Assembly (NCBI GenBank): GCA_018004935.1
Contig: JAGNBF010000048.1
Location: 1 to 53,521 of the forward strand
Reading direction: 5' to 3'
Source: Chloroflexota bacterium
Lineage (GTDB): Bacteria > Chloroflexota > Anaerolineae > Promineifilales > Promineifilaceae
Length of the DNA: 53,521 nt
The position numbers and the translations under genes are program-made. Shown in pieces: positions 3-30,884 of this stretch; the first letter of the stretch is position 1; every line of letters begins with the position of its first letter. Under the pieces are notes generated by a model. It worked only from the letters and a program-made list of their open reading frames with translations. It had not been told where the DNA came from and searched no databases.

Positions 3-710
3 ACCGATCTCATCCGCCTGCAATGTTATGAAGGGTTGGATGTAAATCACGCTGTCTACGAGTGGAACTACACCCGGCAGTTGCTCCACATTCGCTTGCT
101 AGAAGCACGCGGGGAACGGGCCAGCGAAGCCGAACTGTTTGGCCCGGAATATTTGTTAAAGCGGCCGCTACTCCAGGCCATCGAACAAACCCGCACCAAA
201 CCACCCGTCCTGCTCATTGATGAAGTAGACCGCAGTGACGAGGAGTTTGAAGCATTCCTGTTAGAAATCCTGTCCGATTTTCAAGTCACCGTACCCGAAA
301 TCGGCACGATCAAAGCGACCCAACCCCCCGTCGTTATTCTCACCTCCAACCGTACCCGCGAAGTCCACGACGCCCTGAAACGCCGCTGTCTCTACCATTG
401 GATTGATTACCCCAGCTTTGAGAAAGAGTACGACATCGTGCAGGCCAAAGTGCCCCAGGCGGGCGAACAGTTGGCGCGGCAGGTCACACTATTCATTCAA
501 GAATTGCGCGAAGCCGACCTGTACAAACTCCCTGGCGTAGCCGAAACGCTGGACTGGACAACGGCTCTGGTGGCACTGGATCAGGTGGCGCTGGATTTGG
601 GGGTGGTGGAAGATACGTTGGGCGTTATCCTGAAATACCAGGATGACATCGAAAAGGTAAGTGGGGAGATGGCAAAGCAGATGCTGACGCGGGTGAAGAC
701 GAAAAGTTGA
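3..710 (+). CDS. MoxR-type AAA+ ATPase, 5' end outside window
   Basis: This is the C-terminal two thirds of an AAA+ ATPase of the MoxR/CoxD kind. The reading frame is open to the window edge, so the start and the Walker A loop lie upstream. Visible are a Walker B motif (LLIDEVDRSDEEFEAFLLEIL region near nt 210-272), a sensor-1 segment ILTSNRTREVHDALKRRC (about nt 334-390) and a C-terminal lid. The segment before Walker B (NHAVYEWNYTRQLLHIRL) is typical of CoxD-like MoxR proteins. MoxR ATPases act as chaperones that insert metals or mature enzyme complexes, often beside a von Willebrand A-domain protein. No partner is visible here, so the client is unknown. Family assignment is firm, exact role is not. 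Confidence 0.85.
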   Translation, partial: TDLIRLQCYEGLDVNHAVYEWNYTRQLLHIRLLEARGERASEAELFGPEYLLKRPLLQAIEQTRTKPPVLLIDEVDRSDEEFEAFLLEILSDFQVTVPEIGTIKATQPPVVILTSNRTREVHDALKRRCLYHWIDYPSFEKEYDIVQAKVPQAGEQLARQVTLFIQELREADLYKLPGVAETLDWTTALVALDQVALDLGVVEDTLGVILKYQDDIEKVSGEMAKQMLTRVKTKS

Positions 711-25367: not shown

Positions 25368-27584
25368 TTATGCTTCCCGGTACAACAAACGCAACCCATT
25401 CGCCGTTACCAGCAATGATGTCCCCATATCAGCCAGCACCGCCAGCCACATCGTACCCGAACCAGCCAGCACCAGGAGCAAGAATATCCCTTTGATCCCC
25501 AGACTAAAGGCAATATTGGCCCAAATGGTGCGCATGGTAGCCTGGCTGAGACGCACGGCAAAGGGGAGACGCCTCAGATCATCCTGCATCAGGGCGATAT
25601 CGGCTGTTTCCATAGCCTGGGCTGTGCCGCCCGCGCCAATGGCAATGCCTACAGCCGCAGTAGCCAGGGCTGGAGCGTCATTGATGCCATCACCTACCAT
25701 AGCAATGGGGCCAACGGCCTTTTGTAACATTTGTACCTGGGCCACTTTATTTTCCGGTAGGAGATTGGCCTGCACCTGGCTAACGCCCACTGCCCGAGCA
25801 ATGGCCTGAGCGGTGGTGTGATTATCACCAGTAAGCATGATCAAATGGTGGATGCCGAGGGTTTGCAGTTGGGCCAGAGCGTCCCGACTGCTGGGGCGCA
25901 CGGTGTCTTGTACGGTAATGAACCCCTGGTATTCCCCATTACGGCTGATGAGTAAAGGTGTATGACCTTGCGCGGCCGCATTCTCCGCCCAGGCACATAT
26001 TGTTTCGTCATGGGGAATATGTTGCTCAAAAAAGGCATGACTTCCCACCATAATGGTTTGCCCATTCACCTGCCCGGTTACACCCTGACCAACAAGAGCC
26101 TGGACACCCTGGGCTGAATATTTATACAAAAGCCCTTGTTGATCCGCGGCCGCGACTACTGCCTGGGCCAAAGGATGTTCACTTTGTTGTTCCACTGCTC
26201 CGGCTAAGGCTAATAAATCGGTACAGGCCGCACATCCGACTTCGTGTCCCTGGCACTGAGCCGCTTGCACCGCCACAACCGTTGGTTGCCCAGTGGTCAG
26301 CGTTCCCGTTTTATCAAAGGCTATTGCCTTGATACGGCTCAGGGTTTCCAGATGTGCGCCCCCTTTTATCAGAACCCCATGCCGGGCGGCGTTGCTAATG
26401 GCACTGATCAGGCTTACCGGGGTACTGATCACCAGCGCACAAGGGCAGGCCACCACCAACAACGCTAACCCCCGGTACAGCCAGCCTTTGCTCTCCGGGT
26501 CAGGATTCCAAAACGGCTGATCAAAAAGGAGTGGGGGAAGTAAGGCGACCAAAACAGCTAACACAACAACGACCGGTGTATAGTAGCGGGCAAACTGGTC
26601 TACTAACCGTTGTGCCGGGGCACGTTTTTCTTGAGCTTCTTCCACCATTTGAATGAGGCGGCTGATGGTATTATCAGTGGCCAGATGGGTGACAGTGATT
26701 TCGAGCGCGGCCGCGCCGTTGATAGTGCCAGCGAAAACCGTCTCGCCTACACCTTTCGCTACCGGAATACTTTCTCCGGTGATAGGGGCCTGATTCACCG
26801 CCGATTGCCCGGCTATCACCTGGCCATCCATAGGGATTCGCTCTCCTGGTTTCACCAAAATCACATCGCCAATCTGTAAAGTGCTGATGGGGCACGTTTC
26901 TTGAAATGACAGACCAACCAGGGGTAAGGTGAGCGTGGTTGCGGCTACCGGCGCGGCCTGGCGGATACGGGTAGCCGTTTGGGGCACAACCTCCATTAAA
27001 CCCCGGATAGAACGGCGGGCGCGATCCGCCGAATATCCTTCTAGCGCCTCGCCCAGGGCAAATAAAACCATCACCATACCCGCTTCGGTGTAAGCCCCAA
27101 TAATAACCGCCCCCACAGCCGCCAGGCTCATCAGGGTGTTGATGGTAATTTCCTGGTTTTGCCAGAAAGAACGGGCACCCCGTTGCATGATGGGCCAACC
27201 CGCCAGCGTCAGTGCGATAAGGGAGCAAAGGTTGATCCAGGTGGCTTCTTGTTGCAGAAATTCGCCCCCAATGAGGCCGGGCAACATGAAGATGCCCCCT
27301 AACAAAGCTTGCCGGGTGTCCGGGCGTCCCCAGAGGTAAGGAAGCAGAGAGAGGGCCGGAGTAGGCGTAGCGGCCGCGGGTTCGGCTACGGTATAGCCCA
27401 AAGCTTCTACTTTAGCCTGTACCTGTTCTGGCTGGGCCGTACCTTGCACCCGTAATTTACCAGTGGTGAAATTGATTTCGCATATGGTGACGCCAGTTAT
27501 CTGGCGTACCCCTTTTTCGATGGTCTGGGCACAATGGGCACAATCCATTCCTTCAACTTGTAGGGTAAACGTATTTTCCGACAT
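25368..27584 (-). CDS. cadA: Zn/Cd/Pb-type heavy-metal P-type ATPase
   Basis: 738 residues. An N-terminal HMA domain has the metal site GMDCAHC (C15, C18). Core P1B-ATPase motifs follow: TGES (269-272), the transmembrane CPC at 380-382, the phosphorylation site DKTGT at D424, HP (470-471) and GDGIND. The CPC motif plus a DMG motif in the last span (LADMGTS) point to the Zn/Cd/Pb subgroup rather than copper. An extra cysteine-rich stretch, CQGHEVGCAAC (about 444-454), sits in the nucleotide-binding domain and is unusual. It exports divalent metal across the cytoplasmic membrane. No regulator gene is adjacent. Confidence 0.95.
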   Translation of the reverse strand: MSENTFTLQVEGMDCAHCAQTIEKGVRQITGVTICEINFTTGKLRVQGTAQPEQVQAKVEALGYTVAEPAAATPTPALSLLPYLWGRPDTRQALLGGIFMLPGLIGGEFLQQEATWINLCSLIALTLAGWPIMQRGARSFWQNQEITINTLMSLAAVGAVIIGAYTEAGMVMVLFALGEALEGYSADRARRSIRGLMEVVPQTATRIRQAAPVAATTLTLPLVGLSFQETCPISTLQIGDVILVKPGERIPMDGQVIAGQSAVNQAPITGESIPVAKGVGETVFAGTINGAAALEITVTHLATDNTISRLIQMVEEAQEKRAPAQRLVDQFARYYTPVVVVLAVLVALLPPLLFDQPFWNPDPESKGWLYRGLALLVVACPCALVISTPVSLISAISNAARHGVLIKGGAHLETLSRIKAIAFDKTGTLTTGQPTVVAVQAAQCQGHEVGCAACTDLLALAGAVEQQSEHPLAQAVVAAADQQGLLYKYSAQGVQALVGQGVTGQVNGQTIMVGSHAFFEQHIPHDETICAWAENAAAQGHTPLLISRNGEYQGFITVQDTVRPSSRDALAQLQTLGIHHLIMLTGDNHTTAQAIARAVGVSQVQANLLPENKVAQVQMLQKAVGPIAMVGDGINDAPALATAAVGIAIGAGGTAQAMETADIALMQDDLRRLPFAVRLSQATMRTIWANIAFSLGIKGIFLLLVLAGSGTMWLAVLADMGTSLLVTANGLRLLYREA

Positions 27585-27598
27585 GTTCGCCTCAATAA

Positions 27599-27733
27599 CG
27601 GATTTGGGCGTGGTTCAAAAGTCGGCAAATGGTGCTTAACACTTTGTAGGGCGATTTGGTCAATCGCCCACGAGACGATTTACCAAATCGTCCTACAAAT
27701 TTGTAAAGCTGACCTGAACCATGCCCGGATTTG
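27599..27733. mobile_element. 119-bp MITE with 8-bp target duplication (copy 1)
   Basis: The element is 27607-27725. Its ends are GGCGTGGTTC and GAACCATGCC (9 of 10 complementary), and it is flanked by perfect direct repeats CGGATTTG at 27599-27606 and 27726-27733. The core carries two hairpins, TGTAGGGCGATTTGGTCAAT and ACCAAATCGTCCTACA. It has the same length and ends as the copy at 32245-32363. It has no coding capacity, so a transposase in trans is needed; 8-bp duplications suit several DDE families. Confidence 0.92.
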
Positions 27734-27751
27734 TGATTGACGATTGACTAC

Positions 27752-27831
27752 GGGTTCGCCCGTAAATAACTTTTGAGTTTGTTGTGGCCGGTCTCCTGAC
27801 CGCGCCACCCAACTTAATCTTGAGCGAAGCC
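27752..27831. repeat. 80-bp palindromic repeat (GTGGCCGGTCTCC family)
   Basis: The ends are GGGTTCGCCCG and a degenerate GAGCGAAGCC, and the core is GTGGCCGGTCTCCTGACC. It is the inverse orientation of the copy at 22075-22154 and has the same 80-bp length. Confidence 0.7.
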
Positions 27832-28043
27832 TAAGTACAATTGACCGACTTTTGAACCGCGCCGGTTTTTCTCTTGTAGGGCATGAACTGGCTCAAGCAA
27901 AAACCCGGTTTCTCCAGCGAGGCTGTATAGTTATTCCCCAATACCCATTCAGCGCCGAGTTTAGTATTAGTATAAACCTTCAACCATAGTTCAATGTCAA
28001 GGGCATAACCACGATTTGAGTATACCCATAAATCGTGGGGCAC

Positions 28044-28076
28044 AGACCTGACAGGTTTCTAAAACCTGTCAGGTCT
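28044..28076. repeat. AGACCTGACAGG palindrome
   Basis: A perfect 15-bp inverted repeat (AGACCTGACAGGTTT at 28044-28058) with a 3-nt loop. A slightly degenerate copy is at 25307-25340. The region 27832-28043 before it holds no supported gene. Confidence 0.8.
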
Positions 28077-28121
28077 CCCACAAAACGTGGATATACTCCG
28101 TGATAACGTGACAAGTCTGGT

Positions 28122-28150
28122 TTGACAAAACTTTTCCTCTCTTGTATTTT
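28122..28150 (+). promoter_or_regulatory. Promoter of the proS leader
   Basis: TTGACA at 28122-28127 (perfect -35) and TATTTT at 28145-28150 are separated by exactly 17 bp. The predicted transcript start near 28157 leaves a leader of about 236 nt before proS. Confidence 0.75.
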
Positions 28151-28159
28151 ATGAGAGCT

Positions 28160-28246
28160 ATGAAACGAGGAAACAGTTTATCTACCCAGCAATACCCTAT
28201 CCCTAGCGGCCCCGTTGCTTGCGGGGCGGTTTCGTTGGCTGGTTGA
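28160..28246 (+). CDS. Possible proline-containing leader peptide of proS
   Basis: A 28-codon open frame from ATG 28160 to TGA 28246, followed at once by a second stop (TAG). It contains three Pro codons in six positions (28196-28198, 28202-28204, 28211-28213) in the segment YPIPSGP. The third lies in the first arm of the leader hairpin 28209-28227. The ATG would be only about 3 nt from the predicted transcript end and has no clear ribosome site, so translation would have to be nearly leaderless. Such an ORF can occur by chance; the case rests on its position within the attenuator. Confidence 0.3.
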   Translation: MKRGNSLSTQQYPIPSGPVACGAVSLAG

Positions 28247-28333
28247 TAGGTGTAAGATGATGGCCGTGTACGCGGCCGCGAACCCAACCTGACTGAATGA
28301 AACGCCCCACGAACAAACGGGGCGTTTTTTTTT
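28209..28333 (+). promoter_or_regulatory. Candidate transcription attenuator before proS
   Basis: Three mutually exclusive pairings are visible. Hairpin A is GCCCCG (28209-28214) with CGGGGC (28222-28227). The antiterminator pairs GGGGCGGTTTCGTT (28223-28236) with AATGAAACGCCCC (28296-28308), about 13 pairs with one bulge and one G-T. The intrinsic terminator pairs AAACGCCCC (28300-28308) with GGGGCGTTT (28319-28327), followed by nine T at 28325-28333. No plus-strand gene lies upstream, so the terminator must act on the proS leader itself. A small extra hairpin GGCCG/CGGCC lies at 28262-28276. No T-box consensus was found. Confidence 0.6.
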
Positions 28334-28392
28334 GAAAAGGAACTCAGTGCCTACGAATTCCCCTTCATTCACAAACTCAAACGAGGTGTTTT

Positions 28393-30159
28393 ATGCGTAT
28401 GTCTAAACGGTTTGGCCTTACCCTACGGGATGCCCCAGCCGATGTCGAAGTAAAAAGTCATCAACTCCTTTTGCGGGCGGGGTTTATTCGCCCGTTGGCC
28501 GCCGGGATTTTTAGCTACCTGCCCCTGGCAAAACGCTCCATCACCAAAATCGAGAACATCATGCGGGATGAGATGAATGCCATCGGCGGGCAGGAATTGA
28601 CCATGCCCGTTGTCCATCCGGCGGACATCTGGAAAGAAACAAAGCGATGGTACGAAATCGGCACGGAGATGGGCCGTTTCCTGGACAAGAACGAGCGGGA
28701 TATGGTTCTGGCGATGACCCACGAAGAAGTGGTGGCCGACCTGATCCGGCGGGAAATCCAGTCGTACCGGCAGTTGCCCCAGATGGTGTACCACATTCAA
28801 ACCAAATGGCGGGATGATCCGCGGCCGCGAGCCGGTCTCATCCGCGTGCGTGAGTTCACCATGTTGGACAGCTACACCCTGGACGCCAACGAACAAAGCC
28901 TGGATGAACAATACCGCGCCCATTATCAGGCCTACTTTAACATCTTCAACCGGGCTGGTATCAAAGCCATCGCGGTGGCTTCTGATGTGGGGATGATGGG
29001 CGGTTCGATGGCCCATGAGTACATGTACCTCACCCCCATCGGTGAAGATACCCTGGTGCTGTGTGACAACTGTGGCTACCACGCCAACCGGCAAATCGCT
29101 ATCTTCCAGAAAAACCAGGCCGCTACCGAAGAAGCGCAGGTCATTGAAAAAGTCGCCACCCCCAACGTCGCCACCATCGAGGCCCTGGCCGATTTCTTGG
29201 GTGTGCCCAAAGCCAAAACAGCCAAAGCAGTGTTTATGGTTGCCACCATGCGTGAAGCGGGCACAGAGACGCAAAAATTCGTCTTTGCCATCGTGCGTGG
29301 CGACATGGATGTGAACGAAACAAAGCTGACCAACGCCCTCAAAGCCCACGAACTGCGCCCGGCTCACCTGGAAGAAATCACGGCGATTGGGGCCGTGCCT
29401 GGTTATGCTTCGCCGGTGGGCCTGCCTGCCAATAAAAACGTCATCATCATTGTGGATGATACCATTCCCACTTCGCCCAATCTGGTGGCCGGGGCCAACG
29501 ATGCGGGCTATCACCTGCGTCATGTGAATTATGGCCGTGATTACAGCGCAGACATTGTGGCGGACATCGCGGCCGCGCAGGAAGGTGATGGTTGTCCCCG
29601 TTGCGGCACACCGGTCTACCTCTCCCGTGGGGTGGAAGTGGGCAATATTTTCAAACTGGGCACAAAGTACACAGCGGCTCTGGGTGGCAACTTCGTGGAC
29701 GAAGACGGCCAACTTAAACCGGTCATCATGGGGTCGTATGGCATCGGCGTGGGCCGGTTGCTGGCCTGCTCGGCTGAAGAAAACAACGACGACAAAGGGC
29801 TGACCTTGCCCATCAGCATCGCGCCGTACCATGTACATCTGGTAGGCATGGCGAAAATGGAAAAAGAGGCCGATCAGGTGTATGCGCAGTTGGTGGCCGC
29901 CGGGGTTGAGGTGCTGTTTGATGACCGGGATGAAAGTGCCGGGGTGAAGTTCAACGACGCCGACCTCATCGGTTTGCCCATCCGCCTGACCGTTGGCTCA
30001 CGGGCCTGGAAGGAAGGGGGCGTGGAGATGAAACTGCGCCGCAGTGATGAGCGCACCGTCCTGCCCCTGGATAACCTGGTGGGTGGGGTGAAGGCCCAGA
30101 TTGACGCCCTCTTCGCCGAAATCCAGGCTACCCTCATTCCCGTCCCGTTTGAAGCGTAA
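28393..30159 (+). CDS. proS: Prolyl-tRNA synthetase (bacterial type)
   Basis: 588 residues, usual length for the bacterial form with an editing insertion. Class II motif 1 lies in the N-terminal helix region, motif 2 around REFTMLDSYTLD, and motif 3 GSYGIGVGRLL. The insertion domain (about 225-400; KAKTAKAVFMV, KNVIIIVDDT) resembles YbaK and removes mischarged alanine. It ends with the anticodon-binding domain (YHVHLVGMAKMEKEADQVYAQL). Expression is probably set by the attenuator just upstream. The octamer GCGGCCGC at 28821 is read within the conserved RDDPRPRAG segment. Confidence 0.97.
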   Translation: MRMSKRFGLTLRDAPADVEVKSHQLLLRAGFIRPLAAGIFSYLPLAKRSITKIENIMRDEMNAIGGQELTMPVVHPADIWKETKRWYEIGTEMGRFLDKNERDMVLAMTHEEVVADLIRREIQSYRQLPQMVYHIQTKWRDDPRPRAGLIRVREFTMLDSYTLDANEQSLDEQYRAHYQAYFNIFNRAGIKAIAVASDVGMMGGSMAHEYMYLTPIGEDTLVLCDNCGYHANRQIAIFQKNQAATEEAQVIEKVATPNVATIEALADFLGVPKAKTAKAVFMVATMREAGTETQKFVFAIVRGDMDVNETKLTNALKAHELRPAHLEEITAIGAVPGYASPVGLPANKNVIIIVDDTIPTSPNLVAGANDAGYHLRHVNYGRDYSADIVADIAAAQEGDGCPRCGTPVYLSRGVEVGNIFKLGTKYTAALGGNFVDEDGQLKPVIMGSYGIGVGRLLACSAEENNDDKGLTLPISIAPYHVHLVGMAKMEKEADQVYAQLVAAGVEVLFDDRDESAGVKFNDADLIGLPIRLTVGSRAWKEGGVEMKLRRSDERTVLPLDNLVGGVKAQIDALFAEIQATLIPVPFEA

Positions 30160-30240: not shown

Positions 30241-30259
30241 ATTATTGTGGAGGTGGATG

Positions 30260-30490
30260 ATGAGTACCAAAGAGTTACTTGTTTCCCAAATAGACGGATT
30301 GAGTCAGGATGAATTAGAAGAAATATATGCTTTTGTGAAGCAGTATTTAGCTTCACGCAAGCAAGAAAAAACACGCCCCGGTTTTTTAGAACGCTTAGGG
30401 AAAATCCAGATTGATGGCCCAGAAGATTTTGCCGAAAATATTGACCTTTATTTGAGTGGAGAAAAGCAAATTGTCCCCGCTGTTCATTGA
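30260..30490 (+). CDS. Putative antitoxin of a PIN-type pair
   Basis: 76 residues. The N-terminal half is helical (STKELLVSQIDGLSQDELEEIYAFVKQYL), the C-terminal half (PGFLERLGKIQIDGPEDFAENIDLYLSGEKQ) is the extended kind that usually wraps around a PIN toxin. It resembles small DUF2281/VapB-like antitoxins, but there is no clear DNA-binding motif that I can see. ATG 30260 is chosen since GGAGGT ends 5 nt before it; ATG 30257 is too close. It overlaps the toxin gene. Confidence 0.72.
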   Translation: MSTKELLVSQIDGLSQDELEEIYAFVKQYLASRKQEKTRPGFLERLGKIQIDGPEDFAENIDLYLSGEKQIVPAVH

Positions 30491-30884
30491 TACGGCTTAT
30501 ATTATTGCGCTTGTTAACCGCCGAGATAAATATCATCTACAGGCACAGAGTCTGGCAAAACAACATGCGCATACCCCTTTGGTGACAACAGATGCTGTTT
30601 TATTGGAAGTTGGCAATGCGTTAGCCCAATGTTTCCGTGTTGAAGCTGTCGCTATCATTGAGCAATTCCTAAAAAACCCGGAAATCGAGGTCGTTCATTT
30701 AACCCCACAACGATTTGCTTCAGCTTTTGCTATCTACAAAAAATATGTAGACAAGGAATGGGGATTAGTTGATTGCATTTCCTTTGCCGTTATGCAGGAA
30801 AGAGGCATTCAACACGCCTTAACATCCGATCACCATTTTGTTCAGGCTGGTTTTATCGCTTTGATGACGAGTGAGGCGAGATGA
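30471..30884 (+). CDS. PIN-domain ribonuclease toxin (VapC-like)
   Basis: 137 residues. The four acidic PIN positions are visible: D in LFIDTAYIIAL, E in LLEVGNAL, D in WGLVDCISF and D in LTSDHHF. PIN toxins cut tRNA or mRNA with a metal ion. TTG 30471 is proposed because GGAG sits 9 nt upstream and the family starts SPLFIDT; GTG 30456 gives five more residues. It overlaps the antitoxin by 20 bp, and its stop overlaps the wecB start as ATGA, which ties the toxin to expression of wecB. Confidence 0.85.
   Translation: MSPLFIDTAYIIALVNRRDKYHLQAQSLAKQHAHTPLVTTDAVLLEVGNALAQCFRVEAVAIIEQFLKNPEIEVVHLTPQRFASAFAIYKKYVDKEWGLVDCISFAVMQERGIQHALTSDHHFVQAGFIALMTSEAR

Follow-up and report, generated by a model that had tools for sequence, protein, structure and literature searches.

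In Escherichia coli, pheST and the his, trp, thr, ilv and leu operons are controlled by attenuators whose leader ORFs possess ribosome sites; in Gram-positive bacteria, aminoacyl-tRNA synthetase genes are usually under T-box control. Streptomyces lividans possesses leader peptides, most of them reported as leaderless, before alaS, thrS, trpS and leuS (PMC8079986). In Salmonella, the leader ORFs mgtP and mgtL contain proline codons through which a shortage of prolyl-tRNA is sensed and transcription of the genes that follow increases (mgtCBR and mgtA; PMC3641672). Polycysteine leaderless short ORFs occur in mycobacteria, according to the passage of PMC9031893 that cites Canestrari et al. 2020. 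Among 12 Chloroflexi genomes, a published survey detected leaderless genes in four (PMC3160421).

Analysis of a 53,521-nucleotide contig (C216; hereafter the window, meaning the whole stretch of DNA that was analysed) from the 8.0-Mb draft genome of a Chloroflexota bacterium indicates that its prolyl-tRNA synthetase gene, proS, is in all likelihood preceded by a ribosome-mediated transcription attenuator with a leader peptide translated from a leaderless start. Like the E. coli attenuators, the proS leader follows the 1:2 / 2:3 / 3:4 logic of alternative segment pairings, with control codons immediately before 1:2 and an intrinsic terminator; the E. coli attenuators differ in that their leader ORFs have ribosome sites and specify other amino acids. 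With the S. lividans leaders it shares a short ORF of cognate codons and, after it, competing hairpins, ahead of an aminoacyl-tRNA synthetase gene; those leaders, however, belong to Actinobacteria, precede neither proS nor pheS, and in some cases lack a U-rich terminator (PMC8079986), whereas the proS leader belongs to Chloroflexota, contains proline codons, and possesses a classical terminator and a conserved antiterminator. The mgtP and mgtL ORFs likewise use proline codons as a gauge of prolyl-tRNA, but their targets are Mg2+ transporter genes rather than a tRNA synthetase gene, there is no sign of homology, and mgtP, unlike the proS leader, has a Shine-Dalgarno-like sequence and three consecutive proline codons (PMC3641672). 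The mycobacterial ORFs, as portrayed in the same part of PMC9031893, resemble the proS leader in being leaderless, short and able to report one amino acid through decoding speed, but they concern cysteine, belong to Actinobacteria, and are described as regulating downstream translation. The initial annotation of this DNA, which proposed ribosome-mediated attenuation of proS, knew of no such case for a prolyl-tRNA synthetase; our search of the open-access literature (subscription papers being outside its scope) likewise found no proS attenuator and no mention of Chloroflexi attenuators, nor was a mention of proS found in the broad terminator survey PMC2965389. As far as searched, the mechanism is known in kind, and proS as its target, leaderless initiation outside the Actinobacteria, and the set of three synthetase genes discussed below are undescribed.

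The positions of the promoter, ORF, proline codons, hairpin A, pairing arms and terminator in the initial annotation proved correct when re-checked (Table 1), as did its statement that no other plus-strand gene is present: there is none from 27584 to proS at 28393. By reading, the minus strand at 25368-27584 encodes a heavy-metal P-type ATPase-like protein, and the plus strand downstream of proS (30245-30884) has two small ORFs that overlap, of toxin-antitoxin-like appearance, with a PIN-like second member.

Table 1. Features of the proS leader region, in window coordinates
Feature	Position	Strand	Remarks
-35 element TTGACA	28122..28127	+	same in 17/17 family leaders
-10 element TATTTT	28145..28150	+	spacer to -35 element, 17 nt
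Leader-peptide ORF MKRGNSLSTQQYPIPSGPVACGAVSLAG*, predicted leaderless	28160..28246	+	28 codons; ATG 28160-28162, 9 nt 3' of the -10 element; stop TGA 28244-28246
Control codons CCT ATC CCT AGC GGC CCC	28196..28213	+	proline codons CCT 28196, CCT 28202, CCC 28211
Hairpin A (segments 1:2), GCCCCGTTGCTTGCGGGGC	28209..28227	+	begins 4 nt past the second proline codon
Antiterminator 5' arm (segment 2)	28223..28236	+	pairs with 28296-28308; duplex -19.9 kcal/mol (RNAduplex)
Spacer hairpin, between segments 2 and 3	28262..28279	+	sequence not conserved
Antiterminator 3' arm (segment 3)	28296..28308	+	overlaps terminator 5' arm
Intrinsic terminator (segments 3:4), AAACGCCCC...GGGGCGTTT + nine T	28300..28333	+	stem 28300-28308/28319-28327; nine T, 28325-28333; terminator in 17/17 family leaders
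proS Shine-Dalgarno GAGGTG	28383..28388	+	in contrast to the leader ORF, which has none
proS, bacterial-type prolyl-tRNA synthetase, 588 aa	28393..30159	+	NCBIfam NF006625, 682 bits; TIGR00409, 565 bits; both exceed cut-off

The promoter (28122-28150) is the single sigma70-like site on the plus strand within 27600-28800; shuffled versions of this interval contain 1.3 such sites on average, so that the promoter match alone is weak proof. The entire window leader folds only moderately better than its shuffles (z -1.69). By itself the leader sequence is no more than suggestive; conservation among relatives decides. Two repeats were observed in the same intergenic region: a palindrome, AGACCTGACAGGTTTctaAAACCTGTCAGGTCT, at 28044-28078, with near-identical copies near proS of relative L008, is likely a dispersed repeat, and the stretch at 27600-27730 ('cgtggttcaaaagtcggcaa...tgtagggcgat...'), a nearly identical copy of which lies between the alaS leader and alaS (L147), is probably a dispersed intergenic repeat of the window's genome.

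We infer the transcript start, the translation of the leader and its response to proline limitation as follows. From the usual spacing of the -10 element to +1, transcription would start at about 28157, a few nucleotides before the ATG at 28160, and a ribosome would load directly on this 5'-terminal ATG and trail RNA polymerase. When prolyl-tRNA is plentiful, the ribosome would pass the proline codons and reach the stop codon, where segment 2 would be covered or returned to hairpin A; segment 3 would then be free for segment 4, and transcription would end at 28333. When prolyl-tRNA is short, the ribosome would stall at the proline codons, chiefly CCT 28202, blocking hairpin A and leaving segment 2 to capture segment 3 as the antiterminator, and polymerase would continue into proS. 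Since the proline codons are spaced and do not form a run, sensitivity may be modest.

Of 52 genomes examined from the same family, 18 carry a window-type ProS (63-68% identity), and the complete arrangement is present in 17 of these; the contig of the eighteenth (G021) gives only 215 nt upstream of proS. TTGACA, ATG, a proline-rich leader peptide, hairpin A and the terminator are shared by all 17 leaders, although hairpin A is built differently in G031. Each ORF contains two to four proline codons, usually within a core P-x-P-[S/T/A]-x-P (for example MKKQLLFAPVPSGPVVKTTGRWCVI, MFIQVVYLPVPAGPRYIM, MNHWLIVTYAPVPTSPVAEAAGGWRLSPDQLGKLLL and MIWKRRTKAYTPAPIGPRCASNGAFQVT); the second proline codon is CCT in 16/17, and the first and third vary synonymously between CCT and CCC. 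A pattern search of the family for the A element (CCTANNNNCCCCGTTG..CARCGGG) gave 12 matches, every one upstream of proS and none elsewhere. The conserved leaders were recognised by reading the upstreams of orthologous proS genes; BLASTN of the window leader against the family genomes gave no full-length match, and the only hits that stood out were pieces of the terminator immediately 5' of proS in G031 and G027. Twelve family genomes encode the other ProS type, and none of them showed a comparable proline-rich leader; two weak promoter-ORF matches there have poor -35 elements. A possible leaderless proline leader, MFRSFGTFPRRPSPLPGHQSG*, was seen in G049 (L021) and not counted; in G101 (L162), a relative of G049, a similar terminator is all that remains.

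The preservation of the core P-[VI]-P-[STA]-x-P in most of the family exceeds what bare proline codons need, as would be expected if P-V-P-S-x-P were an arrest peptide that stalls through its nascent chain or senses the status of EF-P, and not uncharged tRNA-Pro. This is very unlikely: proline spacing varies freely in other Anaerolineae (IPTPTPAFEP, FPPSPVPSP, SPAPSPG) and in G031 (APTAPRP), there is no conservation of sequence ahead of the core, and the sister leaders described below have runs of their cognate codons with no peptide in common.

Attenuation by a ribosome stalled for want of prolyl-tRNA calls for a stall site that blocks 1:2 but leaves segment 2 free, and in the family leaders hairpin A begins 1-6 nt past the second proline codon. 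When a ribosome was modelled with this codon in its A site and the RNA free from +13, pairing 2:3 formed and 1:2 was lost or reduced in 16/17 family models; with the ribosome at the stop codon, 2:3 did not form and 3:4 did. Compared with dinucleotide shuffles, 2:3 pairing has a mean z of -1.73 (n=28 leaders), and in L178 and L188 it is not clearly better than shuffles. Among 21 representatives, the pairing of cognate segment 2 and 3 arms is 3.95 kcal/mol stronger than row and column means predict, a result matched by 0 of 20000 permutations of cognate versus swapped arms and inflated somewhat by relatedness within groups; this test was used instead of pair counts, which were dropped because in the MAFFT alignment (A1) the arms of the window's genome (G000) and of G009 are out of place. 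The mutually exclusive pairings 1:2, 2:3 and 3:4 are conserved with covariation, more weakly in G031, L178 and L188. The initial annotation had staked its proposal on such conservation, and the comparison of proS leaders bears it out for the three pairings and the proline codons alike. Equilibrium folding of the window leader without a ribosome already prefers the antiterminator, as it does in G064, G065 and partly G014; termination on the untranslated leader RNA would therefore depend on hairpin A folding first. Anatomy, conservation, codon frame and mutually exclusive pairings are shown by the sequence together with its comparison, and the leader combines the sequence and structural features that distinguish a ribosome-mediated transcription attenuator: an ORF of cognate codons, a terminator, exclusive pairings and placement of the stall site.

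The initial annotation regarded the lack of a ribosome site for the leader ORF as its weak point. The absence is real but would not be a weakness: the ATG lies 9 nt after the -10 element, at about +4 of the expected transcript, so that a leaderless start is predicted for the ORF, which would need no such site. An in-frame ATG occurs 6-10 nt after the -10 element in 17/17 family leaders (in G002 it is the second of two ATGs). In the whole genome of the window, the pattern TTGACA-16..18-TANNNT-6..9-ATG occurs 34 times versus 6 for the reversed pattern, which argues that leaderless starts are common there. Across genera, 24, 27, 30, 33, 36 or 48 nt lie between the ATG and the conserved proline element, always a multiple of 3, which supports the leader ATG as the setter of the frame; no stop codon interrupts this interval in the 17 family leaders.

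Outside the family, 11 Anaerolineae have proline-rich leaderless leaders, found in a set of 80 public genome contigs that carry related proS genes, with stems that differ from those of the family (for example MDAWTAFPPSPVPSPRRLRRVFGCPGSRM in L180, MNAMRRFSPSPVPSNRKPR in L197, MFATQISHAFSPAPSPAFGPFAACVGA in L195 and MQQQEARAVFCPVPSTALCLPHPALG in L184, accession CP075367.1); the leader detector gave 0/157 on reversed or reverse-complemented upstreams. No similar leader was found in about 85 other proS upstreams at the level of the class; some lineages have the leader, while others lack it or have one that escaped detection. Around the central proline codon, the nucleotides CCTA(G/C)C show more conservation than a proline codon demands in L180, L184, L192, L195, L197 and the family leaders, which span several groups. 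In 8 of the 11 (L178, L180, L184, L187, L188, L190, L199 and L207), 11-30 nt separate the end of the terminator from the ATG of proS, which must therefore be transcribed through the terminator. A transcript start beyond 28333, which the initial annotation held to be incompatible with its proposal, is improbable for the same reason. Promoter, short transcript and strong terminator do make a complete set, such as an independent gene for a small RNA or a small protein would have if proS possessed its own promoter, but we reject this as extremely improbable: the short gaps of these relatives leave no room for a promoter, no promoter-like site was found within 28333-28393 of the window, the A element is confined in the family to proS upstreams, and the antiterminator pairing is conserved.

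Familiar as T-boxes are before synthetase genes of Gram-positive bacteria, a leader that senses without translation, whether T-box-like or bound by ProS itself, has a negligible probability, since the reading frame survives changes of length that are all multiples of 3, the T-box covariance model has no match, and neither the window leader nor the other scanned proS leaders contain a T-box or regulatory Rfam family at gathering score (leader families for His, Leu, Thr, Trp, Phe and others included), the scan having matched only tRNAs and, elsewhere in L191, a SAM riboswitch.

Ribosome-mediated attenuation of proS, as the initial annotation proposed, is thus a strongly supported inference from comparative sequence data: relatives retain the anatomy, and the same design recurs before two other synthetase genes. 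Besides the proS leader, a promoter-ATG scan of the window's genome picked out leaderless ORFs that each have a terminator: MLSHRFFFFFSHNNRAATAESALSS* precedes pheS (L152, G000:C134, promoter-ATG 59547), and MINFFVIRFSSRAARQTQVWHR* precedes alaS (L147, G000:C97), where about 1 kb separates the promoter from alaS. Leaderless Phe-rich leaders (for example MNQQRFFSFFFFNTTRAAFAPEVRYT), with terminator GACGCGG..CCGCGTC, precede pheS in 26/30 family genomes (L255-L284), and leaderless Ala-rich leaders (for example MKQSCVISAAAAAQTSGLVTSAA), with terminator CCGCCAGAC..GTCTGGCGG, precede alaS in 17/30 (L285-L314). A single architecture that recurs before three synthetase genes, each time with the matching codons, is hardly a coincidence; by sequence, the proS leader is a member of a family-wide leaderless set that also precedes pheS and alaS. 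Leaderless leader peptides are probably a general device of the Anaerolineae for attenuation of aminoacyl-tRNA synthetase genes (proS, pheS, alaS and possibly others), among which proS would be the first prolyl-tRNA synthetase gene with ribosome-mediated attenuation; the leaderless starts shared with Actinobacteria would be either an old common trait or a convergence. Such a device would add proline and proS to the ribosome-mediated attenuators and extend classical attenuation to a phylum with few cultured members; a ribosome site, regarded as essential to such leaders, would be dispensable when the leader ORF begins at the 5' end, and searches that demand a Shine-Dalgarno sequence would overlook such switches. 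The set predicts that proS, pheS and alaS each answer to their own amino acid only. One further leaderless ORF, MSVLTVSVSTLNLV*, with a terminator was noticed in the window's genome before a small protein that by eye resembles a SWIM zinc-finger protein (L155, G000:C156); it may be another attenuator.
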